NCBI GenBank assembly: GCA_009664345.1
Contig: CP043547.1
Location: forward strand, 124,001-188,000
Source of the DNA: Planctomycetales bacterium 10988
GTDB taxonomy: Bacteria; Planctomycetota; Planctomycetia; Pirellulales; Pb10988
Length of the DNA stretch: 64,000 nt
Direction: 5' to 3'
The notes under the pieces were generated by a model, which was given only the letters and a program-made list of their open reading frames with translations, was not told the DNA's origin and searched no databases. This document shows positions 29,415 to 41,567 of the stretch, in pieces (position 1 is the stretch's first letter; each line of letters starts with the position of its first letter). The translations under genes and the position numbers were made by a program.

Positions 29415-30956
29415 TTGAATCTTCTGATTGCCGATTTCCAACAATCGCTCAGCTATATTTTCGACAGAAGAACTTTACTCAAGCAAAATAGTGATAGGTT
29501 GCTCGTGGAAACGCTTTCGCAAACATCATCCTTGCCCCTCCTTGAAGCGAAATTTACGGAACTCCTTGGCAAAGATAGAGTTCTCACCTCCCCCTCTGAA
29601 CGATTGGTTTATGAATGTGATGGTTTTACTCTAGAAAAAAATATACCAGATCTTGTTGTCCTTCCCGAAACTACCGAAGAAGTCGTCGCAATTGTCAAGT
29701 TATGTAATGAATATCAAGTACCTTTCTTGCCACGTGGAGCGGGCACAAGTCTAGCGGGCGGCTGCTTCCCCTTTGATGGCGGCGTGATGATCGTCTTGAC
29801 CCGCATGAAAAAAATCATCGAGCTTCAGGTGCGTGATCGGTATGCCGTCGTGCAACCGGGGGTCATCAATAGCGCATTGACCAGAGCACTTCAAGGTACA
29901 GGTTATCATTATGCTCCCGACCCTTCGAGTCAAATCGCTTGCACCATCGGCGGGAATGTCGCTACGAATTCCGGGGGGCCTCATACTTTAAAATATGGCG
30001 TGACCGTCAATCATATCCTCGGTCTTGAGATCGTCCTGCATGATGGAAGCATTCTGGAGTTAGGCGGTCCAACAGGCGAACAATTCGGTCCCGATTTGAT
30101 TAGTGTTTTTGTGGGAAGTGAAGGGACTTTTGGCATCTGTACCAAAGTTTGGGTGCGGCTGACACCCGACCCAGAAGCGAGAAAAACCGTCTTGGCTGTC
30201 TTCGATGATATGGATAATGCCACCGAGGCCATTAGTGAAATTATCGGCCAAGGAATCATCCCCGCGGCTATGGAAATGATGGACCAAGGAATTACCCAAG
30301 CGGTTGAAGAGGCATTTCATTTTGGTTTTCCAACAGATGCAAAGGCCGTCGTAATTATCGAAATTGATGGCCTCCAAGCGGGACTTCAAGAACAACAAGA
30401 TGCGATTCTTAAAATCTGCCAGGACTTCGGAGCAAGAGAAGTTCGCCATGCTCAAACCGAGGCCGAACGACTGCAAATCTGGCAAGCTCGTAAAAAGGCC
30501 TTCGGGGCAATCGGACGATTGAGTTCTAGCTTTTGCACGCAAGATGGCGTAGTTCCCCGGACGAAACTCCCCGAAATGTTACGTCAAGTCGCTGCTGTTT
30601 CAGAAAAATACGGTCTGAGGATTGTCAACGTTTTTCATGCAGGAGACGGAAATATTCATCCGATCTTGTTATTTGATGAACGTGATGAAGAACAGGTCCG
30701 TCAAGTTTTGGAAGCCTCGGACGAAATCCTAGAAACTTGCTTGGACCTCGGTGGTACCGTGACAGGGGAGCATGGCATCGGGATCGAAAAATTAAGCTTT
30801 ATGCCCAGGATGTTTACGGAGACCGATTTAGCTGTCATGAAGAATGTCAAAGAAGTCTTTAATCCAAGCCAATTACTTAGTCCGAAAAAAAAGCTTCCTT
30901 CTGAAGACATCAAAGAATTAAAACGTCTAAAACCCGGTCGACATGCACCTCATTAA
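29415..30956 (+). CDS. glcD: glycolate/lactate oxidase FAD subunit GlcD
   Basis: An FAD-linked oxidase of up to 513 residues. The PCMH-type FAD domain is shown by LVVLPETTEEVVAIVKLCNE, PRGAGTSLAGGC and GGNVATNSGGPHTLKYGVT. The C-terminal FAD-oxidase domain has NVFHAGDGNIHP and TVTGEHGIGIEKL. GlcD, with GlcE and GlcF, oxidises glycolate to glyoxylate and often D-lactate to pyruvate, passing electrons to the membrane quinone pool. No ATG precedes the conserved region; TTG 29415, TTG 29499 and GTG 29505 are candidates. The conserved part begins near LLEAKFTELLG, so a start at 29499-29505 fits the family length better. First of three genes glcDEF. Confidence 0.93.
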   Translation: MNLLIADFQQSLSYIFDRRTLLKQNSDRLLVETLSQTSSLPLLEAKFTELLGKDRVLTSPSERLVYECDGFTLEKNIPDLVVLPETTEEVVAIVKLCNEYQVPFLPRGAGTSLAGGCFPFDGGVMIVLTRMKKIIELQVRDRYAVVQPGVINSALTRALQGTGYHYAPDPSSQIACTIGGNVATNSGGPHTLKYGVTVNHILGLEIVLHDGSILELGGPTGEQFGPDLISVFVGSEGTFGICTKVWVRLTPDPEARKTVLAVFDDMDNATEAISEIIGQGIIPAAMEMMDQGITQAVEEAFHFGFPTDAKAVVIIEIDGLQAGLQEQQDAILKICQDFGAREVRHAQTEAERLQIWQARKKAFGAIGRLSSSFCTQDGVVPRTKLPEMLRQVAAVSEKYGLRIVNVFHAGDGNIHPILLFDERDEEQVRQVLEASDEILETCLDLGGTVTGEHGIGIEKLSFMPRMFTETDLAVMKNVKEVFNPSQLLSPKKKLPSEDIKELKRLKPGRHAPH

Positions 30957-31094
30957 CAAATAAACTGAGTGGAAGCGGTCAACGCCATAGAGCTTTCAAA
31001 CAAAGTTTGGAGAGCGAAAACACTTAATTAAATCATTCATAAATGGTGATTGTCCAACTTGTAATCTCCATCATCCAAAAGAATCCCAGTAAGT

Positions 31095-32363
31095 ATGCAG
31101 ACCTTGACCCCCGAAACCCCTTCAGACTTAGTGGAACTCATTCACAAATCTGCCACTTCGCAAACAAAACTTCGTATCGGCACCCATCAACCTATTCAAC
31201 AGTCCGAAGTTGAACAGAGTCGATTGGTTAATATTTCAAAACTCAACCAACTCGTGGAGCATTCTACAAGAGACCTTACGATTATTGTGGAAGCAGGAAT
31301 GACCTTCCAAAAATTTTATGAAAAGCTTGCCCAACAGAATCAATGGTTGCCGGTGAACGTTCCCGCCCCTGAAACGACAACCATTGGAAGTCTCATTGCA
31401 GCGAACTATGCAGGCCCTCTTCAGTTGAAACATGGAACGGTGCGAGATTATCTTCTAGGGATCAAAGCCATTGATGGAAATGGGAACTATTTTAAAGCAG
31501 GTGGCAAAGTTGTTAAGAATGTCGCAGGTTACGATCTTTCACGCCTTTTAATTGGCTCACAAGGAACATTGGCCGCCATTACTGAAGCAACCTTTCATGT
31601 GAAGCCTTTACCCCCAAGAAAAAGTTGGATTGTGATCGCCTGTCAAACATGGTCCATCGCCGAATCGTTGATCGAATTTTGTTTAAATGCTTCCTGGCAA
31701 CCATCGGCGATTGAATTACTCACCGGAAAAACCTGGTTAGAGAAGAGCTATCTTCCAACAACCGACAAACAAAAGACAACTTGTTATTTAGCGATTTGCT
31801 TAACAGGGGCTGCCTCAGAAATCGATTTTATCTTAGAAGAATTGAATCCTTGGGAAACTCATTCGGAAGTGAATTCTCAATCTCAAATAGACGAACAATA
31901 CCTAGAGACCATCGAAACAGAATTGATAGAATTTGCCTCTCCGAAACCTGAAGCTTGGATTTTTCAATGTCACATTCGACCGAAACAGATTGTTTACTTC
32001 ACAGAGGTCTGTAAAAAATATTTCCCAACGGGCTCTTTTCAAGCCCACGCCGGGAACGGGATTTTAAATATCCAATTATCTGAAGAGTGCTCGATAGATT
32101 CTTTTAAAACATCCTTTAAAAAGATAGAGCAAGAGCTGTCAAAATATTATCAATCCAAGATAAATTTTCGATTATTACAAGCACCGCACAGTATTCCAAT
32201 GGCTGAGATACGATCCGGTTTCCAGTATCCACAGGCAGCCATCATGCATAAGATGAATCGCTTGTTGAAAGAGCGATTCGATCCAAATTTTATTTTGCAG
32301 ACAAATAATCCCATCTATGAAGCTACCGCAGCCTATTTAAATGAAACGGCAACGAAAGCATGA
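31095..32363 (+). CDS. glcE: glycolate oxidase FAD-binding subunit GlcE
   Basis: A 422-residue protein. The second FAD-binding subunit of glycolate oxidase is shown by LRIGTHQPIQQ, FQKFYEKLAQQNQWLPVNVP, TTIGSLIAANYAGPLQLKHG and GGKVVKNVAGYDLSRLLIGSQGTL. It is about 70 residues longer than E. coli GlcE, mainly in the C-terminal half. It starts 138 bases after glcD and overlaps glcF by four bases (ATGA), so the last two genes are translationally coupled. It works with GlcD and GlcF at the membrane. Alternative family members of similar fold act on other 2-hydroxy acids; the gene order makes GlcE the clear choice. Confidence 0.92.
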   Translation: MQTLTPETPSDLVELIHKSATSQTKLRIGTHQPIQQSEVEQSRLVNISKLNQLVEHSTRDLTIIVEAGMTFQKFYEKLAQQNQWLPVNVPAPETTTIGSLIAANYAGPLQLKHGTVRDYLLGIKAIDGNGNYFKAGGKVVKNVAGYDLSRLLIGSQGTLAAITEATFHVKPLPPRKSWIVIACQTWSIAESLIEFCLNASWQPSAIELLTGKTWLEKSYLPTTDKQKTTCYLAICLTGAASEIDFILEELNPWETHSEVNSQSQIDEQYLETIETELIEFASPKPEAWIFQCHIRPKQIVYFTEVCKKYFPTGSFQAHAGNGILNIQLSEECSIDSFKTSFKKIEQELSKYYQSKINFRLLQAPHSIPMAEIRSGFQYPQAAIMHKMNRLLKERFDPNFILQTNNPIYEATAAYLNETATKA

Positions 32364-33733
32364 GTGTTAAAGAATCCTTAAATGTAGAAGCTCCACAACT
32401 GTCAGCCCCTACCTCTACTGAGAAAAAATCATGTTCACAGTCAGCTGTCAGTTTTGATACAAAAGTCAACTATGATCGTTTCTTGGACTGTATTCATTGC
32501 GGACTCTGTACGGCAACTTGTCCTACTTATGTTGAACTCGGCAACGAGAACGATGGGCCTCGAGGGCGAATACATTTAATGCGGGCGGTGACCGATGAAA
32601 GGGTTGAACTTTCCCCACAAATTCGTCAACACTTGGATTTGTGTTTAGACTGTCGAGCTTGTGAAACCGCCTGCCCGTCCGGTGTTAAATATGGAGAAAT
32701 CATTGAACCGTTCCGTAGTGCCTTGGCTGAAAAAGATCGGAATGACGGCAAAAAGCTTGATCTATTTCATCGGTTAATTCTGTTTAAACTTTTTCCATCC
32801 GCAAAGCTCACGCGACTATCTTTAATACCTGCTCGCATCGCTCAGTCGATTAAACTTGATCAGTGGTTTTTAAACTCGCCCCTTAAAAAATTGTTGCCAA
32901 AGAAGATTCTCGCGCTGACAGAAATGCTTCCCCCGTTAGGTGCGAATTTACCATCGTTACCGACTCACTTGCCGGCGAAAGGGAAACAGCGTGCAAAGGT
33001 AGCTTTGTTTACAGGGTGTGTGGCTGATGCGGTCTTCCGTTCAACTCATTGGGCGACCGCGAGGGTGCTTCAGGAAAATGGTTGCGAAGTTGTCGTTCCT
33101 AAAAATCAGACCTGCTGTGGGGCGATTCATGTTCACTCGGGCCAGGAAGATCAAGCCCGTCCTTATCTTGAAGCAAATTTAACAGCATTCGAAGACCCTT
33201 CCATCGACGCGATAATCGTAAACGTGGCTGGCTGCGGGGCAATGCTCAAGGAATACCATCACCATTTTAAAGAAACAACTGACCAAAAAAGACTAAAAAC
33301 GTTTATGTCAAAAGTGAAAGATGTTCATGAGTTTCTTGATGAGTTAGGAGTCATTCCGCCCAAAGGTAGAATTGAAGCAACGGCCACGTATCACGATGCG
33401 TGTCATCTTCGCCATGCTCAACAAATCGCAGCGGCACCTCGGAACTTACTCAATCAAATTCCCGGTTTAAAATTAATTCCACTCCCTGAGTCCGAACTAT
33501 GTTGTGGAGCAGCCGGTACCTATAATCTGACACAACCCGAGATGGCAAATCGGTTAGGGGTTCGAAAGATTGAGAATGTGAAAAGGACGGATGCGGAACT
33601 TTTATTAGCAGCGAATGCAGGTTGCTTGCTTCAGTTACATAAAGTAGCGAAACAACAACATTTAAATAGTTGGATCGGTCACCCCATCGACTTACTAGAC
33701 CTGAGTTATCAACAAAAACAGCCCAAGCTCTAA
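32360..33733 (+). CDS. glcF: glycolate oxidase iron-sulfur subunit GlcF
   Basis: A 457-residue protein with two N-terminal [4Fe-4S] motifs, CIHCGLCTATCP and CLDCRACETACPSGV (residues ~44-110). Two CCG-type domains follow (CTGCVAD... CCGAIHVHSG, then ACHLRHAQQ... CCGAAGTYN), the pattern of GlcF and lactate-utilisation subunits. It takes electrons from the FAD subunits to the quinone pool. The first ~40 residues are a non-conserved extension. Its stop codon lies inside the hairpin that terminates the oncoming microcompartment operon (33717-33753). Confidence 0.93.
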   Translation: MSVKESLNVEAPQLSAPTSTEKKSCSQSAVSFDTKVNYDRFLDCIHCGLCTATCPTYVELGNENDGPRGRIHLMRAVTDERVELSPQIRQHLDLCLDCRACETACPSGVKYGEIIEPFRSALAEKDRNDGKKLDLFHRLILFKLFPSAKLTRLSLIPARIAQSIKLDQWFLNSPLKKLLPKKILALTEMLPPLGANLPSLPTHLPAKGKQRAKVALFTGCVADAVFRSTHWATARVLQENGCEVVVPKNQTCCGAIHVHSGQEDQARPYLEANLTAFEDPSIDAIIVNVAGCGAMLKEYHHHFKETTDQKRLKTFMSKVKDVHEFLDELGVIPPKGRIEATATYHDACHLRHAQQIAAAPRNLLNQIPGLKLIPLPESELCCGAAGTYNLTQPEMANRLGVRKIENVKRTDAELLLAANAGCLLQLHKVAKQQHLNSWIGHPIDLLDLSYQQKQPKL

Positions 33734-33774: not shown

Positions 33775-34707
33775 TTAGACAGATTGCGAAATCTTTTGGA
33801 AAGTTTGTTCCAAGACCGAAGCACTTTTTCGCAAACCTTGAATTTCTTTAGGCCATAGATCAATTTCAAGGGTATTAATCACACCTTTTGCCCCGACAAC
33901 TGTCGGCACCGATAAAGAAACGTCACGAATTCCGTAACAACCGGTTTGCCAGCTAGAGACCGGTAAAATTGCGTGACTGTTGAGAGCAATTGCTTCAATC
34001 ACCCTTTGTATGGCGATTCCTACCGCGAAGCCTGCCCCGCCCTTCTTCTTAATTACTTCCGCACCAGAGCCTTTGGTTCGAGTAAACAACTCGTTTGCAA
34101 GCGAATTTGTCCAACCAGGATATTTTTCTAAAGGGAGTCCGGCCACGGTAGCACTGGACCAGATAGGAACCATGCTGTCGCCATGTTCCCCTAAAATTAA
34201 TGCTGAAACTTGCGTTGGGGGAACATCCATTTGTCGAGCGATTAAACTACAAAACCGAATCGTATCTAACTGTGTACCTAATCCCATCACTTGATGAGAG
34301 GGTAGATCAAGCATTTTAACAGCTAAACTTGTTAATAAGTCAACTGGGTTGGAAACCACCACGATTTTCGCACATGACTTGTATCCGACTTTTTTAACTT
34401 CATCAAGAATGCTGATAAACAGAGCAACATTTCGATTGATCAAATCAAGCCGACTTTCATCGGGTTTGCGACGGAGTCCCGCAGTAATACAAATGACATC
34501 AGAATCTGACACTTGTTCATAGCTACCGGAATAAATTTTTTGATCAGCGATCAAAGGCGAGCCATGAAGTAAATCAAGTGCCTGTCCTTCAGCCATTTCT
34601 TGATTGACATCAAGTAAAGCAATTTCTTTAACAACTTTACCAGTCTGTAAAGCGAAGGCTGTACAAGAACCAACCAGCCCCCCTGCTCCGATAATACTAA
34701 CTTTCAT
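33775..34707 (-). CDS. lactate/malate dehydrogenase family enzyme of the microcompartment
   Basis: A 310-residue NAD-dependent 2-hydroxyacid dehydrogenase fold. The Rossmann motif is GAGGLVGS, Asp33 (LLDVN) favours NAD, the active-site pair Asp/His is in LDTIRF and GEHGDS, and the loop reads TAGLRRKPDESR. The position that is Gln in lactate dehydrogenases and Arg in malate dehydrogenases (102 in the usual numbering) is Arg80 here. It is last in the microcompartment operon, 30 bases after the aldolase. In PVM-type compartments this gene is expected to reoxidise NADH, probably by reducing lactaldehyde to propanediol; that role is inferred from context. No targeting peptide is obvious at either end. 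Confidence 0.9.
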   Translation of the reverse strand: MKVSIIGAGGLVGSCTAFALQTGKVVKEIALLDVNQEMAEGQALDLLHGSPLIADQKIYSGSYEQVSDSDVICITAGLRRKPDESRLDLINRNVALFISILDEVKKVGYKSCAKIVVVSNPVDLLTSLAVKMLDLPSHQVMGLGTQLDTIRFCSLIARQMDVPPTQVSALILGEHGDSMVPIWSSATVAGLPLEKYPGWTNSLANELFTRTKGSGAEVIKKKGGAGFAVGIAIQRVIEAIALNSHAILPVSSWQTGCYGIRDVSLSVPTVVGAKGVINTLEIDLWPKEIQGLRKSASVLEQTFQKISQSV

Positions 34708-34737: not shown

Positions 34738-35610
34738 TTATCTTGATTTCAAAGCCGTGAGGACTTGGTCCGTGATGAGTTGAACTAATTGCTCTTCACT
34801 GAGGGAAGAGGTTTCTTCCTTTTTCTCAGCAACAAACGTCTGTTCTTTCTTCATTGGAGGTGGCGGAGCAAAAGCCCGAGTACCGACACCGCTTTCTTCC
34901 CACCGATCACGAAAAACATCATTTGCACAGATGTCACAATCTTTCATCTCTGGTGCTAAGCGGGGATCATCAAAGCCAAATCGTTGTTTAAGTTTTAAGA
35001 GTTCACGACTCTTTTGTTCGTTTAAATACGTTAACGGCCCGAGGCTTCGAGCAAGCATTAACATTCGACAATAAGAATCGAGAATTTCAGTCCACCAATA
35101 AGCTTGTTCTACACTATTGCCCCAACTGACAGTTCCATGATTGGCTAAAATCGCCACACTCGCTTTGTGTACAAAAGGTCGAATAGTATCCGCAAAACCT
35201 TGAGCACCAGGAGTTTCATATTGAGTAATAGGAACTTCGCCTAAAAAGACTTCTACTTCAGGTAACACACATTGTGGAATCGCTTCACGGGCGATGGCAA
35301 AAGCCGTTGCGTGGGGAGGGTGACAATGAACGACACTTTTAACATCTGATCGTTCTTTCATAATGGTTAAGTGAAGTAAGATTTCACTTGTTCGTTTTTT
35401 CTTGCCGGCAAGTTGATTCCCATCTAAATCAACAATACAAAGATCATCCGGTTCCATGAAACCTTTACATATACCGGTTGGCGTACAAAGGACTTCATTC
35501 TCACCCAAGCGAAAGGAAATATTTCCATCATTCGCAGCCGCAAACTGACGATTGTAAATCCGCCTACCAATTTCACAGATCTCTTGTTTAACCTGATAAA
35601 GATTAACCAT
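34738..35610 (-). CDS. class II aldolase (L-fuculose/rhamnulose-1-phosphate aldolase type) with C-terminal targeting helix
   Basis: A 290-residue protein. The class II aldolase/adducin fold shows NDGNISFRLGENEVL, TPTGICKGF, the metal-binding HCHPP and LANHGTVSWG, with the third His-type ligand in that segment. It is expected to split L-fuculose- or L-rhamnulose-1-phosphate into DHAP and L-lactaldehyde. The last ~55 residues are an extension not needed for catalysis: a Pro-rich and charged linker (FAPPPPMKKE) and a final amphipathic helix (EEQLVQLITDQVLTALKS) like the encapsulation peptides of microcompartment cargo. That places the enzyme in the lumen. Substrate choice between fucose and rhamnose derivatives cannot be decided by eye. 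Confidence 0.9.
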   Translation of the reverse strand: MVNLYQVKQEICEIGRRIYNRQFAAANDGNISFRLGENEVLCTPTGICKGFMEPDDLCIVDLDGNQLAGKKKRTSEILLHLTIMKERSDVKSVVHCHPPHATAFAIAREAIPQCVLPEVEVFLGEVPITQYETPGAQGFADTIRPFVHKASVAILANHGTVSWGNSVEQAYWWTEILDSYCRMLMLARSLGPLTYLNEQKSRELLKLKQRFGFDDPRLAPEMKDCDICANDVFRDRWEESGVGTRAFAPPPPMKKEQTFVAEKKEETSSLSEEQLVQLITDQVLTALKSR

Positions 35611-35711: not shown

Positions 35712-35999
35712 TTAGTCTTCGGATATCTCTAATTGATCTATGATCAAAGATATCGATGCATCTATCGGTTTTAGATTCTTTTTAAAAGGCATAGCCGCTT
35801 CCGCACCTTCGCTGACCCCTACTAGTTGTTGATTTCCCGCCCCTAAGTAATCTAATGCCACAAAAGCGTCCTCCACTTGGTTCGAATGATTTTTTATATC
35901 CTCCAACTTCAAAGGGGAAACAAGCAATAAACTATATCCCTTTAAAGAATCATGGGAACGCTGAAGCGTGACGTTTCCGATTACTTTTCCTATACGCAT
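35712..35999 (-). CDS. microcompartment shell vertex protein (BMC-P, EutN/CcmL type)
   Basis: A 95-residue pentamer-forming shell protein. The start is ATG 35999 (MRIGKVIGNVTL), the standard family start; the longer frame to 36032 is rejected because it overlaps the upstream gene. EutN/CcmL features are GKVIGNVTLQRSH, YSLLLVSPL, FVALDYLGAGNQQLVGVSEGAEAA. Pentamers cap the vertices of the icosahedral shell. It follows the unknown gene 36008-36757 by eight bases. One of three BMC-P genes here, matching the set of three known in PVM-type loci. Confidence 0.93.
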   Translation of the reverse strand: MRIGKVIGNVTLQRSHDSLKGYSLLLVSPLKLEDIKNHSNQVEDAFVALDYLGAGNQQLVGVSEGAEAAMPFKKNLKPIDASISLIIDQLEISED

Positions 36000-36007
36000 G
36001 CCAAACT

Positions 36008-36757
36008 CTAACTCGTAATGATTTGTAAACACATCTGATTTAACAGATAGGGTGAAATCAACTTTGGATTCATTATATATAGAGGCGAAGTCAGTTCCTT
36101 CTTCGCCAATGCGACCTCCCCCAAATTTCGGAGGTAAACAGCCCCAAATTTATAATTTTGATTGCTAAGGGAAGTAATAAGAAATGGGGTGTCCGTCAGC
36201 AAAATACCTGCGGCATCGGTATGAATAACCTGGCTACATAGATCCTCGACCATCTGAGACGGTCCAATATTTGCTAACTGTTGCGTGTCAATTCGTTTAG
36301 AGGCTAGCGAAGACAGAATACCTTGCATTGAAAATCCAGAGACTAGATTTCCAATGAGAAGTTTTTTATTTTCATTAATCTTTGAGGTTAAACTTTCCTG
36401 CAATACATTGACCTTCTTATCACGAAGGATATCTCTGGCAGAAGGAGTAATCACAGCATTCTGTGGAATCAAAACTTTTGTGACTTTACCACTTAAATAG
36501 TTGTGAAGGACGGAAGCAGTAATTACTTTTTCAAAGATCTTTACAGTGTGAACTTGAGTACCGAGATTGATAGTTGAGCTAAGTTTATTGGAAGAATTTT
36601 GTTTCTCATGTTTAGGTTTACAGGAACAAGGGTCTGACTTTTTTTCGCCAGAACAACCACAGGTAGTCGACTTAGGTTGCAAGATAGAAGATTGAAGAAT
36701 CTGCCGAACGATTGCTTCAATTTCTTCTCGACGAATTGGAAGAGTTGTTTGACTCAT
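36008..36757 (-). CDS. microcompartment-associated protein with encapsulation helix and CxC cluster (unknown function)
   Basis: A 249-residue protein whose ATG (36757) overlaps the stop of the preceding BMC-P gene by four bases (ATGA). Residues 8-24 (IRREEIEAIVRQILQSS) form an amphipathic helix like cargo-targeting peptides. Residues 32-47 hold a Cys cluster, C33-x-C35-x8-C44-x-C46, possibly a metal or Fe-S site. After a polar linker the body contains VITPSARDILRDKKV, a motif reminiscent of the EutT/cobalamin adenosyltransferase-like region, but no full family match is evident. The C-terminal half is alpha/beta. Its position among shell genes indicates a lumenal or shell-associated part of the compartment. 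I do not know its reaction. Confidence 0.8.
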   Translation of the reverse strand: MSQTTLPIRREEIEAIVRQILQSSILQPKSTTCGCSGEKKSDPCSCKPKHEKQNSSNKLSSTINLGTQVHTVKIFEKVITASVLHNYLSGKVTKVLIPQNAVITPSARDILRDKKVNVLQESLTSKINENKKLLIGNLVSGFSMQGILSSLASKRIDTQQLANIGPSQMVEDLCSQVIHTDAAGILLTDTPFLITSLSNQNYKFGAVYLRNLGEVALAKKELTSPLYIMNPKLISPYLLNQMCLQIITS

Positions 36758-37014
36758 GAATCTGGAAAACCTAACACAGTCCATCGGACAGGAGAATCAT
36801 CTCTGCCTAGTAACTCACGAATATACTTACCATCACTTGTTAAAATGACTTGTTCACCAATACGGGCACCAAGGCTATCGATCGCCAATAATGGATAGCC
36901 ATCGGGGCTTTGTTTATCAGCAAGCAGTGGTTGAATACATAAAAGTTTCCATCCCGATATGGAAGGATGTTTCACTGACGAAGTCGCTAGCCCACAAACT
37001 TTTCCTAAAATCAT
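36754..37014 (-). CDS. microcompartment shell vertex protein (BMC-P)
   Basis: An 86-residue EutN/CcmL-type protein: MILGKVCGLATSSVKHPSIS, WKLLCIQPL, LLAIDSLGARIGEQVILTSDGKYIREL. The pattern ALDxxGA(G)xGE is kept with Ser and Arg substitutions. It lies between the aldehyde dehydrogenase (21 bases upstream) and the Cys-cluster protein (4-base overlap), so the three are translated as one unit. It is the shortest of the three vertex proteins. Confidence 0.92.
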   Translation of the reverse strand: MILGKVCGLATSSVKHPSISGWKLLCIQPLLADKQSPDGYPLLAIDSLGARIGEQVILTSDGKYIRELLGRDDSPVRWTVLGFPDS

Positions 37015-37035: not shown

Positions 37036-38520
37036 TTAAGGGTTGCCAATGATACGTAAGTCGTCAACTAAAGAGCATCGCCGTTCGCGAGTAAAAGTGA
37101 GCGGAGTAGTAACACCTTCTCCGGTAGGAGTGGCAATCGAGTAGGAGATGTAGCCTTCTCCTCCAACTCCTAAAGAAGCAAAACAAGGTCCATTTTTGAC
37201 AAATAATGTCGTATCCAATGCTCGACCCATCATTGTCATATTGCGAACATTATTTGAATGAATCATTGCGGTATGACGGAAACCATGCTCGTAAAACTTT
37301 GCTTTATAAATGGCTTCTTCAACATCCGATGTTTTTATAATCGGGACAAAAGGCATCATCTGTTCGACAGGAACAAAAGGATTGGTCTCGTCCACAACTC
37401 CAAAAAGCAAGGGTATATCACTTGATAGATTTACACCTGCTGCTTCTGCCAAGACCCGAGCATCTTGGCCAATGAATTCCTTTGCCGCAACCTGTTTACG
37501 TTTTGCACCTTCACCTACTTCAGTAATTGCTTGACTTACAAGCCTTTGAATTTGGTTCTCTTGAAGTTGGAAAGCACCTTCCATCTCCATTGCCTTAAGA
37601 AAAGCGTCGAAAACTTCGGCAACAACAAAGACTTCTTTTTCCGCAATACAAAGTAAGTTGTTGTCATAGCTGGCTCCGTCAATGATGGACCTGGCAGCTC
37701 TTCTTAAGTCCGCTGTTTCATCCACAACGACAGGAGGGTTCCCCGGTCCGGCCACAACGGCTCGCTTTCCACTATTTAAAGCAGCCTTGGCGACAGCAGG
37801 TCCGCCCGTTACACAAATCATCGAAACATCGCGATGTTTAAAGATAGTTTCAGCTGTTACTAAAGTCGGCTCTTCGATGACACAAATGAGATTATCAATT
37901 CCAATATCTTTACGAATTGCTTGGTTGTAACGACGAACGCCTTCTGCAGCGACACGTTTTCCACTTGGATGTGGATTGACTACCAAGGTATTTCCCCCGG
38001 CAATCATACTAATTGCGTTCCCTGTGATCGTAGGGAGGGAGTGTGTAACCGGAGTAATGGCACCGATGACACCAAAGGGAGCACGTTCAATAATAGCTAA
38101 ACCGTGGTCGCCGCTATAAACATCACTTTTTAAAAATTCAACCCCAGGAGTTCGAGTGCCAAGTGTCAGAAGTTTTTCGATCTTATGCTCAAGCCGCCCG
38201 ATCTTTGTCTCATTCATCTCCATCGTACCAAGTTCGGTACTTTGATCGATTGCAATCCGACGGATGTGATCAATGATTCGCTTTCGCGTTTCAATCCCAC
38301 CATCGCTCAACTGTTCGAATGCAACTCTTGCAGCTTGAATCGCTTCTTCTGCAGATTGAAAAACGCCATTTCTGCCGTCGAAAGAAGTATTCGATGTTGC
38401 CACTGGGGCGGGCGTACTGCGTAGAGGCTGGCTTGTAGGAGAGGTTGAGCTTTGGTGAGAGTCAATTTGTTGTAACACCTTTTCAACGACATCTCGAATC
38501 ATTAATTCAGTTGACTGCAT
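37036..38520 (-). CDS. CoA-acylating aldehyde dehydrogenase of the microcompartment (PduP/EutE type)
   Basis: A 494-residue enzyme starting at ATG 38520 (MQSTELMIRDVV) after GGGA. Residues 3-17 (STELMIRDVVEKVLQ) are an encapsulation-peptide-like helix, followed by a Ser/Pro linker to residue ~55. The catalytic domain shows APFGVIGAITPVTHSLPT, NTLVVNPHPSGK, GGPAVAKAAL and the catalytic Cys in SYDNNLLCIAEKE. PduP/EutE-type enzymes convert an aldehyde plus CoA and NAD+ to acyl-CoA; here lactaldehyde to lactyl-CoA is expected. Upstream lies a BMC-P gene (67 bases), downstream another BMC-P (21 bases). The NADH formed would be recycled by the dehydrogenase at 33775-34707. Confidence 0.95.
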   Translation of the reverse strand: MQSTELMIRDVVEKVLQQIDSHQSSTSPTSQPLRSTPAPVATSNTSFDGRNGVFQSAEEAIQAARVAFEQLSDGGIETRKRIIDHIRRIAIDQSTELGTMEMNETKIGRLEHKIEKLLTLGTRTPGVEFLKSDVYSGDHGLAIIERAPFGVIGAITPVTHSLPTITGNAISMIAGGNTLVVNPHPSGKRVAAEGVRRYNQAIRKDIGIDNLICVIEEPTLVTAETIFKHRDVSMICVTGGPAVAKAALNSGKRAVVAGPGNPPVVVDETADLRRAARSIIDGASYDNNLLCIAEKEVFVVAEVFDAFLKAMEMEGAFQLQENQIQRLVSQAITEVGEGAKRKQVAAKEFIGQDARVLAEAAGVNLSSDIPLLFGVVDETNPFVPVEQMMPFVPIIKTSDVEEAIYKAKFYEHGFRHTAMIHSNNVRNMTMMGRALDTTLFVKNGPCFASLGVGGEGYISYSIATPTGEGVTTPLTFTRERRCSLVDDLRIIGNP

Positions 38521-38587
38521 ATTTAATCCCAACTTTTTCTAACACGTCTCTTTGAAAAGCAATTACAATTATTGACCGTTTAATTAA

Positions 38588-38893
38588 CTATCGATTGTAA
38601 ACACAAAGTTTTTCTACATGAACTTTATCCACGATGCCGAGTACGACACAATCGATAGGTAGCGTTTTGGTTTCCTCCGTGAAACGGGCACTTGAGCCTT
38701 GGGAAATAAGTACCAAGTCACCTTCTCCGGCTCCAATCGGATCCACCGAGATAAAAGTTCTGCCAGTAGTCGTTAAACTATCTCTAGAAGCGGACTCTAA
38801 TCGATACGGTTCAACTACTAACAGTTTTTGACCAACCATTGATTGAACTTTGTGGGTGGAGACGACACTGCCAACAACTTTTGCCAAGAACAT
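38588..38893 (-). CDS. microcompartment shell vertex protein (BMC-P)
   Basis: A 101-residue EutN/CcmL-type protein starting at ATG 38893 (MFLAKVVGSVVSTHK), four bases after the ackA stop; the longer frame to 38932 is rejected. Typical features are GQKLLVVEPY, FISVDPIGAGEGDLVLISQGSSAR, and the C-terminal VVLGIVDKVHVE. It is one base-tight partner of ackA, so both are translated together. Confidence 0.93.
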   Translation of the reverse strand: MFLAKVVGSVVSTHKVQSMVGQKLLVVEPYRLESASRDSLTTTGRTFISVDPIGAGEGDLVLISQGSSARFTEETKTLPIDCVVLGIVDKVHVEKLCVYNR

Positions 38894-38897
38894 TAGC

Positions 38898-40082
38898 TTA
38901 TTCCTCAAGTAAATTCTTGGCTTGTCTGGCAACTACAAGCTCTTCATTAGTAGGAATGACCCAGATGGCGGTCTTACTCGTAGATGTAGAAATTTGCATT
39001 TCTCCACTAACGTTTGAGTTTAACACACTGTCTAGTTCAATCCCGAGAAAATTTAAATCATTGCAAATAGAGGAACGAATGTTTGTACCTTTTTCTCCGA
39101 TCCCTCCGGAAAAAATTAAAGCATCAGCTCCGCCCAATTCCACTAAATAGGCACCTATAAAATGACGCACGCTCGTAATAAAAGCATCCAAGGCGAGTTG
39201 TGCTTCATCGTTTCCTTCAGCAGCGGCTTGTTCCAGATCTCGCACATCTCCACTCACTTGACTTAGTCCTAACAGCCCACTTTTTGTAGCAAGTTGATTT
39301 AGAATTTCATCTAATGAGCAACCCGTCCCTTTCATCAGAACCGGGAGTGCAAAAGGATCAAAATCACCACATCGATTGTTATGAAACAAGCCCGTCTGAG
39401 GACTCATCCCCATGCTTGTAGCGATACTTTCCCCTTGGAAACTTGCACAAACTGAACTTGAACCACCGAGATGACAAGTGATCACTTTTAAATCATTTCT
39501 ATTTAAAAGTTCTTGTGCTCGCTGATTTAGATAACGATGGCTCGCTCCGTGAAATCCCCATTTTCGAATTCCGAACTTTGTATCCCACTCTCTGGGTGCA
39601 GCATAGAGTCGATTCTTTAAAGGGATTGTCGCATGATAGCCAGTTTCAAAAGCAGCAATTAAAGGAATCTCAGGTAGGTTCTCTGACAGTTGTCGCATGG
39701 CGGCGATATAGGGGGGATTATGTGCAGGGGCAACAGGGGACACTCGGTCCATCTCTTGAAGAACTTCTTCAGTCACCCGAACGACTCCACTGATTTTCCC
39801 TCCATGCACAGCTTTAAATCCGATCGCCTTTACCTCGGATGCATCTTGAAGAATCGGCTGATCACCTTCGGTTAGCTGTTCTAAACAGAGCTTTACTGCC
39901 GTTGCATGATTAGGAACCGTGTGCGTCATCTCTGTTTTTTTGCCATTCACCAGCAGAAAGCAATCACTCTGATCCGCTCCAATTCGTTCAACTCCTCCTT
40001 GTGCAAGCTGTGATTCATGATCCATATCGAAGAGTCGATATTTAAAGCTTGTTGATCCTAAATTGGCAACTAAAAGTTTCAT
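38898..40082 (-). CDS. ackA: acetate kinase family enzyme of the microcompartment
   Basis: A 394-residue ASKHA-fold kinase. Diagnostic parts are the N-terminal phosphate loop VANLGSTSFKYRLFD, VHGGKISGVVRVTEE, APAHNPPYIAAM, FHGASHRYL, HLGGSSSVCA, TGLFHNNRCGDFDPFA and FSGGIGEKG. It transfers phosphate from an acyl phosphate to ADP. Beside PduL and the aldehyde dehydrogenase the substrate is probably lactyl-phosphate as well as acetyl-phosphate, giving lactate and ATP. Residue changes such as ANLGSTSFK for the usual NSGSSSLK set it apart from housekeeping AckA. It lies between BMC-H and BMC-P genes and is four bases from the latter. No encapsulation helix is visible. Confidence 0.93.
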   Translation of the reverse strand: MKLLVANLGSTSFKYRLFDMDHESQLAQGGVERIGADQSDCFLLVNGKKTEMTHTVPNHATAVKLCLEQLTEGDQPILQDASEVKAIGFKAVHGGKISGVVRVTEEVLQEMDRVSPVAPAHNPPYIAAMRQLSENLPEIPLIAAFETGYHATIPLKNRLYAAPREWDTKFGIRKWGFHGASHRYLNQRAQELLNRNDLKVITCHLGGSSSVCASFQGESIATSMGMSPQTGLFHNNRCGDFDPFALPVLMKGTGCSLDEILNQLATKSGLLGLSQVSGDVRDLEQAAAEGNDEAQLALDAFITSVRHFIGAYLVELGGADALIFSGGIGEKGTNIRSSICNDLNFLGIELDSVLNSNVSGEMQISTSTSKTAIWVIPTNEELVVARQAKNLLEE

Positions 40083-40904: not shown

Positions 40905-41567
40905 CTATTTAAAAAGTTCCATCTTCACGGCACGATCGACTTGGGCTGCGTTCCCTTCGTCGGTATCAAGATGTACTTCAAGTTTAGCTGCCGGATCGAC
41001 ACGCACTAAAAGTTCTTCATAAACAGTTGAACAAGTTGCAGAGTGAATTCTTAAATTAATTCGATCCCCATTTTGCACTCCATAATAGGCTGCATCCTGA
41101 TCATTCATGTGAACATGTCGTTCTGCTCGAATGACACCCTCGGTTAACTCTACCGCACCTTTTGGGCCAACGAGAACACAACCGGGAGTGTCAGAAATTT
41201 TTCCACTCGCTCGAACAGGGGCATCGATTCCAAGACTAATCGAATCGGTAAAGGCAAGTTCAACCTGGCTGTGCGGACGGGTTGGGCCAAGTACTCGAAC
41301 GCTTGGAAGCATACGTTTTCTTGGGCCAATAATCATGACGGTTTGTTCGGCTGCGTAGAAACCATCTTGATAAAGCGGTTTCATTGGGACTAGCTTTTGG
41401 CCTTTTCCAAATAATTTTTCGACATGATCGTCAGTTAAATGAACGTGTCTCGCGGAAATGCTAACAACTAATTTTGGTTTTGTTCCTGGTGAAGTGGAGC
41501 CATTTTTTAAGGCTTGACGAACGAGTTGTTCAATGAGGTCTCGCTGTGTCGCTGTGACGGAAGCCAT
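40905..41567 (-). CDS. pduL: phosphotransacylase PduL
   Basis: A 220-residue PduL-type phosphotransacylase. Zinc-binding His motifs [10 protein letters not shown] and RAERHVHMN are present, with [15 protein letters not shown] and [11 protein letters not shown]. Residues ~4-20 ([17 protein letters not shown]) form an amphipathic helix followed by a Ser/Gly/Pro linker, the usual encapsulation peptide of compartment PduL. It converts acyl-CoA plus phosphate to acyl-phosphate and frees CoA inside the shell; here lactyl-CoA is the expected substrate, inferred from neighbours. It is the first enzyme gene of the operon, 102 bases after the DeoR gene. Confidence 0.95.

Follow-up and report, generated by a model that had tools for sequence, protein, structure and literature searches.

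A gene without a name lies among the shell genes of a microcompartment operon of Planctomycetales bacterium 10988, and the question raised by this locus is what its product contributes to the organelle and why it carries a four-cysteine motif. The window analysed here is the whole stretch of 64,000 nucleotides around this operon. The open reading frame proposed in an earlier note on the sequence is confirmed, with the addition of the strand, which that note did not give: the gene (for protein X, 249 amino acids plus stop) is read from 36757 to 36008 on the minus strand, and a plus-strand reading of the same interval was rejected because of stops throughout. The start ATG of X and the stop of the BMC-P gene upstream (37014-36754) share four bases (ATGA), and the likeliest start of the BMC-P gene that follows is the ATG at 35999, which leaves a gap of 8 bases after X. 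The tight coupling to shell genes described in the earlier note therefore holds on both sides, both neighbours being EutN/CcmL (PF03319) genes. The only Pfam match to full-length X was a sub-threshold IMCp hit, dismissed as chance. No significant relative was found in PDB sequence searches with whole X or its TPxAR module (see below), and a search of viral contigs gave no viral or phage relatives.

The operon comprises genes for a DeoR regulator, PduL, two BMC-H, AckA, BMC-P, an aldehyde dehydrogenase (AldDH), BMC-P, X, BMC-P, a class II aldolase and a lactate dehydrogenase (LDH), where the two BMC-H genes and the DeoR gene were identified by reading of open reading frames only (Table 1). All components of the PVM gene set are present (class II aldolase, AldDH, PduL, AckA, LDH, BMC-P and BMC-H), and the locus is of the PVM type, the planctomycete fucose/rhamnose microcompartment (PMC4207490, PMC8217296). 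The pvm cluster of Planctopirus limnophila shares the class II aldolase, AldDH, PduL, AckA, LDH, BMC-H and three BMC-P genes. This setting supports the earlier assignment of X to a compartment and the statement that no B12-dependent enzyme is encoded here. Convergent with the operon, at 29415-33733 on the plus strand, are three genes resembling glycolate/lactate oxidase subunits (two FAD proteins and an Fe-S protein), which, as read from the open reading frames, may oxidise lactate from the PVM pathway.

Table 1. Features of the PVM locus in the window and of related loci (positions in the window unless a locus is named)
Feature	Position	Strand	Basis
X, PVM microcompartment accessory protein, 249 aa	36008..36757	-	ORF; same slot in 46/57 genomes of order
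X: N-terminal encapsulation-type amphipathic helix, residues 10-25	36683..36730	-	AlphaFold2; family consensus
X: CxC-x8-CxC tag (C33, C35, C44, C46) in disordered linker	36620..36661	-	
X: TPxAR module, ~55 aa, residues 68-124	36386..36556	-	common to PduM, EutT, EutQ, TIGR02536
X: RpiB/LacAB-fold domain without catalytic residues, residues 128-249	36011..36376	-	Foldseek, VIA-align, PF02502, catalytic audit
BMC-P (EutN/CcmL) shell gene upstream of X	36754..37014	-	PF03319 E 2.5e-19
BMC-P (EutN/CcmL) shell gene downstream of X	35712..35999	-	PF03319 E 3.3e-20
Third BMC-P shell gene	38588..38932	-	PF03319 E 1e-27
Acylating AldDH, N-terminal encapsulation helix; linker without CxC here	37036..38532	-	
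Class II aldolase, PVM signature enzyme, C-terminal encapsulation-type helix; no CxC tag here	34738..35610	-	PF00596 E 4.9e-49
PduL phosphate acyltransferase; without the C-terminal CxC tag of most PVM PduLs	40905..41567	-	PF06130
Lactate/malate dehydrogenase	33775..34707	-	
Acetate/propionate kinase	38898..40082	-	TIGR00016 E 7.8e-113
Shortened X genes, only helix and TPxAR left, RpiB-fold domain deleted	L094:9644-9904, L100:6217-6459, L108:5818-6069, L110:462-817		
Protein Y	L126:7894-9168; also L117, L120, L122, L127, L128, L131, L132, L142, L150, L160, L195, L235		
Rahnella EP-bearing flavoprotein, TPxAR C-terminus, between pduL and BMC-P gene	L248:4067-4762 (Rahnella plasmid)		

The survey of relatives covered 57 genomes of the order Pirellulales. 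For a search of genome contigs the conserved aldolase served as query, the alignment of the X family being too variable for this purpose. BMC-P genes were found in 56 genomes, nearly always exactly three, and the remaining genome has none. A single-sequence search with X gave a match in 36/57 genomes; inspection of the space that separates the second BMC-P gene from the third found X in 46, a shortened form in five and no X in five (G004, G007, G021, G025 and G032). The shortened forms comprise four proteins of 81-118 amino acids (in G005, G023, G047 and G052) and one internal deletion (locus L104 of G029). In the latter, the deletion has taken out the TPxAR module and fused the helix of X with the final part of the RpiB-like domain, and the gene is perhaps decaying. 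Outside the order, members of the X family occur throughout a second taxonomic family within the class and also in planctomycetes that are more distantly related. X evolves fast: across 49 loci its median identity is 28-33%, whereas that of the aldolase is 78% and that of the neighbouring BMC-P proteins 51-53%. It is not essential everywhere, since lineages that lack the gene retain the locus.

An AlphaFold2 model built from 30 homologues (pLDDT 82) divides X into a helix (residues 10-25), a disordered linker (27-67, pLDDT mostly below 50) and two ordered regions (70-120 and 128-249). The helix follows a family consensus, IExIVREVLARL, in which V17 and V20 are kept in at least 90% of the 30 homologues. 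Both the model and the family pattern support the cargo-type helix that had been read from the sequence.

A structural search, as the earlier note had advised, brought an unforeseen result for residues 128-249. With Foldseek the top 34 matches of the X model were all RpiB/LacAB proteins (probability 1.00), and VIA-align gave Z 16.1 to RpiB/LacAB with an rmsd of 1.9 over 120 residues, compared with 8.2 for the best chain outside that family. Sequence profiles agree with this assignment: PF02502 matches 19/30 X homologues at E<0.1 (one of them above the cut-off, at E 7.7e-7, the window protein not being matched), hhalign gives E 7e-8, and in the reverse search a profile of the X family retrieves true RpiBs. 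The likeness extends to the structural signature ANR..GVRA..N, whose N, R, A and N are retained at 78-95% in the X family. However, the catalytic Cys, His and Asp and the GTG loop of RpiB/LacAB are lost, and the domain is fused to microcompartment modules. When 132 X-family domains were aligned with 13 RpiBs from this order, the CGTG Cys proved to be present in 3/132 X-family domains, while the active-site His and the glycine of the GTG loop are present in none of the 132; the catalytic Asp and the phosphate-binding residues are likewise lacking (3/120 in the tally), and the YPD Tyr occurs in 0/108. The protein of the window is among the more degenerate, lacking both R200 and N225, which are kept by at least 90% of homologues. 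With the fold kept and the catalytic residues lost, the C-terminal domain is an RpiB-fold pseudoenzyme.

Between linker and pseudoenzyme domain lies the TPxAR module, which models well alone (pLDDT 92) but resembles no solved fold significantly (best Foldseek E 0.06, not used). The module contains the motif VITPSARD, which had been described as cobalamin adenosyltransferase-like. This impression came from a real resemblance, as TPxAR is common to EutT: the N-terminal TPSAR segment of EutT was matched at E 7e-6 when 11 eut proteins were searched. However, the match of the EutT model to the X family is limited to residues 13-45 of 267 positions, ahead of the catalytic part, and no Pfam adenosyltransferase match was found for X or its homologues, the corresponding part of X being the RpiB fold. 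X differs from EutT further in its Cys arrangement and in belonging to a locus without a B12 enzyme. X was thus rejected as a cobalamin adenosyltransferase, its catalytic part being missing, and no B12 chemistry needs to be implied. Among 69 family members, NCBIfam matches to the module were to TIGR02536 (54/69), the two PduM models (30/69 and 23/69), EutT (6) and EutQ (2). In PduM and in TIGR02536, an ethanolamine utilisation protein, the match lies at the extreme C-terminus; in EutT and EutQ it comes first. It also forms the C-terminus (E 5e-10) of an EP-bearing 'flavoprotein' in a Rahnella microcompartment locus, a protein that, like X, begins with an EP-like helix and whose gene sits between pduL and the BMC-P gene; in both this flavoprotein and TIGR02536, the second domain and the order of modules differ from those of X. 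The evolutionarily shortened forms of X retain only the helix and this module, and TPxAR seems to be general to microcompartment accessory proteins.

X therefore consists of helix, linker, TPxAR module and an RpiB-fold domain whose active site is lost, and its gene occupies a fixed slot between pentamer genes. The known protein that it most calls to mind is PduM, a low-abundance, EP-bearing structural protein whose loss causes core and shell to separate (PMC9132943, PMC12108088). Both have an encapsulation-type N-terminal helix, a TPxAR-type segment (C-terminal in PduM) and an adjoining BMC-P gene, the pduM gene of Kosakonia lying between pduL and a BMC-P gene, and enzyme activity is expected of neither. 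In contrast, the middle domain of PduM is absent from X, which adds the RpiB-fold domain and, here, the Cys tag. By score X stands outside the PduM family: the best X homologue reaches 20 bits against cut-offs of 50 and 179 for the PduM models (TIGR04493, NF011957), the match is limited to the last 26-42 residues (a similarity of about 40 residues), and a single annotated PduM matches TPxAR at only E 0.2. Because of its architecture, its gene position and the absence of an active site, X is best read as the PVM counterpart of PduM in role. On balance X is probably a non-catalytic assembly adaptor of the PVM organelle which, in this organism, also bears the single CxC tag of the organelle. The helix would dock X to the core of enzymes in the manner of an encapsulation peptide, TPxAR would act as a microcompartment-specific interaction domain, and the pseudo-RpiB domain would serve as a dispensable scaffold or dimeriser. 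In this way X would help to join core to shell, as PduM does in Pdu organelles, with its flexible linker in Planctomycetales bacterium 10988 presenting the one CxC tag.

The Cys motif of X (C33-G-C35-x8-C44-S-C46) exceeds chance expectation, two or more CxC arising in 0.5% of shuffles of a protein with the composition of X. Its spacing shows a candidate likeness to that of the SEC-C zinc motif, CxCx8C[HC]; Pfam SEC-C gave no match in a search with the whole of X. The earlier note had named cysteines not conserved in homologues as evidence against its proposed metal or redox component, and at the linker site this is indeed the case: CxC occurs there in two lineages only, that of the window and that of L007 and L214. 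A putative metal or redox role for the tag is still plausible since CxC tags recur elsewhere, at the C-terminus in one clade of X and on other cargo, one per locus. In one clade of 15 loci, whose monophyly has a support of 0.994, X carries CxC at the C-terminus instead (e.g. CGCKGH, CACKTHTH); the tag of L187, CPCGGPKPEACSCTTHQH, closely resembles that of the window protein, CGCSGEKKSDPCSCKPKH.

Outside X, tags were found on four proteins: PduL carries them at its C-terminus, AldDH in its EP linker, protein Y close to its C-terminal end and, in distant loci, the aldolase ahead of its C-terminal helix. PVM PduLs usually end in CxC with His or Lys (CKCKHS, CACKH, CGCHQ, CACGH), as in L196-L213 and L119-L192 (most Pirellulaceae-type loci) and in all 16 readable Planctomycetaceae-type loci. 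As a small non-PVM control, six PduLs from microcompartment or plasmid contexts were sought, and a CxC tail was present in 0/4 that could be read to the C-terminus. Protein Y, a class-I-aldolase-like protein of 425 amino acids encoded downstream of many PVM loci, has weak NCBIfam and no Pfam matches. It bears double CxC tags, its C-terminal helix is conserved, and it may be a cargo enzyme of PVM organelles that has escaped recognition. Discarded from the tags were CxC upstream of real start codons (L158, L161, L174, L202 and L206) or in spurious open reading frames, and a CPCG motif in L182 and L215, which lies in a large unrelated open reading frame, was set aside. His is found within or at most six residues after 65/89 tags, where the 89 include one artefact that was discarded. 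The census took in 79 loci in which PduL, AldDH and aldolase are all readable, and at first gave one tagged protein in 75/79, none in 4/79 and two in 0/79. For L116, one of the four untagged loci, a tagged Y is encoded at another place in the genome, which raises the exactly-one total to 76/79; L189 is undecidable and the other two, in G016 and G042, are true exceptions. The bearers in the 76 loci are the PduL C-terminus (48), Y (12), X (8), the AldDH linker (4) and the aldolase (4). In the two exceptions (L215 and L234, of one family) no CxC occurs on PduL, AldDH, X, aldolase or Y, so that either they are real exceptions or a sixth tagged protein is still to be found.

Other roles for X fare differently against these data. 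Its RpiB/LacAB fold might suggest an active ketose/aldose isomerase feeding the aldolase, as RpiBs truly occur in SPU microcompartments, where they are intact enzymes and genuine members (PMC8217296, PMC4207490); the catalytic audit makes this barely credible, two intact RpiBs are encoded elsewhere in the same genome, and the reading was rejected because the catalytic parts are missing. Improbable, if less so, is a sugar-phosphate sensor whose RpiB-like pocket would bind a sugar phosphate or lactaldehyde adduct without turnover and adjust core or shell. Retention of the fold through long divergence and of the four pocket-region residues would fit it, but RpiB's GTG anion loop and its C-terminal Arg/His are missing from the family, R200 and N225 are further losses in the window protein, and several lineages have deleted the whole domain. 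That X is itself the metal or redox component, its four-Cys linker holding Zn, Cu or Fe-S and carrying electrons or metal, is unlikely too: the motif is above chance, the linker is disordered and therefore free to bind, and similar tags with a nearby His are widespread on PVM cargo, yet nearly all homologues lack Cys at this site, which thus cannot be the core function of the family, and the presence of the tag on PduL in most loci shows that it is not specific to X.

The tag pattern was also weighed against chance. Column shuffles gave a mean of 42 exactly-one loci and none of 20000 reached 75, while the tag pattern requires about nine changes on the tree, and simulation along it with the observed number of changes matched the exactly-one count in 6.5% of runs (P 0.065). 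In the same simulation only 1.0% gave no doubles together with as few untagged loci (P 0.010). The tag windows for census and simulation were set after the pattern had been noticed, and with about nine changes the evidence is suggestive, not conclusive: a chance origin is moderately unlikely (P about 0.01-0.07). An accident of descent, in which a few independent gains and losses by luck never overlapped, would draw on the small number of changes and on the simulations that do reach the count. It is nevertheless rather doubtful: few runs also combine a lack of doubles with as few untagged loci, the tag sites on other enzymes of a locus are almost without CxC, and X has gained the tag by three separate changes at two sites, linker and tail.

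The other reading, to which we give an even chance, is that each planctomycete PVM organelle has one mobile CxC(-His) tag, which is required on some cargo protein though on none in particular, acts in trans for the lumen and has moved among at least five unrelated proteins. Since most relatives carry it on PduL, Y, AldDH or the aldolase, the tag would serve the whole organelle and not its bearer. It might buffer metal for two zinc enzymes, PduL and class II aldolase, act as a thiol guard for CoA or against aldehyde (aldehyde scavenging), or be the single anchor, through metal or a disulfide, that ties the core to the shell. The likeliest chemistry is a putative binding of metal (Zn) or thiols in the lumen. 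As class II aldolases and PduL are zinc enzymes, a metal buffer or a metal cross-link is putatively favoured. PduL holds two zinc ions (PMC4784909). The metal or redox idea of the earlier note probably survives in this recast form, as one mobile Cys tag per organelle that is predicted to be metal- or thiol-active.

If these readings are true, a PVM gene without a name codes for a PduM-like adaptor, and TPxAR would be a marker of accessory proteins across many microcompartment types. The tag would also offer a short natural label for engineered compartments, and its rule is testable in Planctopirus limnophila, for which rhamnose-inducible genetics exists (PMC11958385). The tag pattern would then be a rule of organelle function independent of the protein that bears the tag, a form of trans-acting lumen function (metal, thiol or anchoring) that is hard to detect gene by gene.
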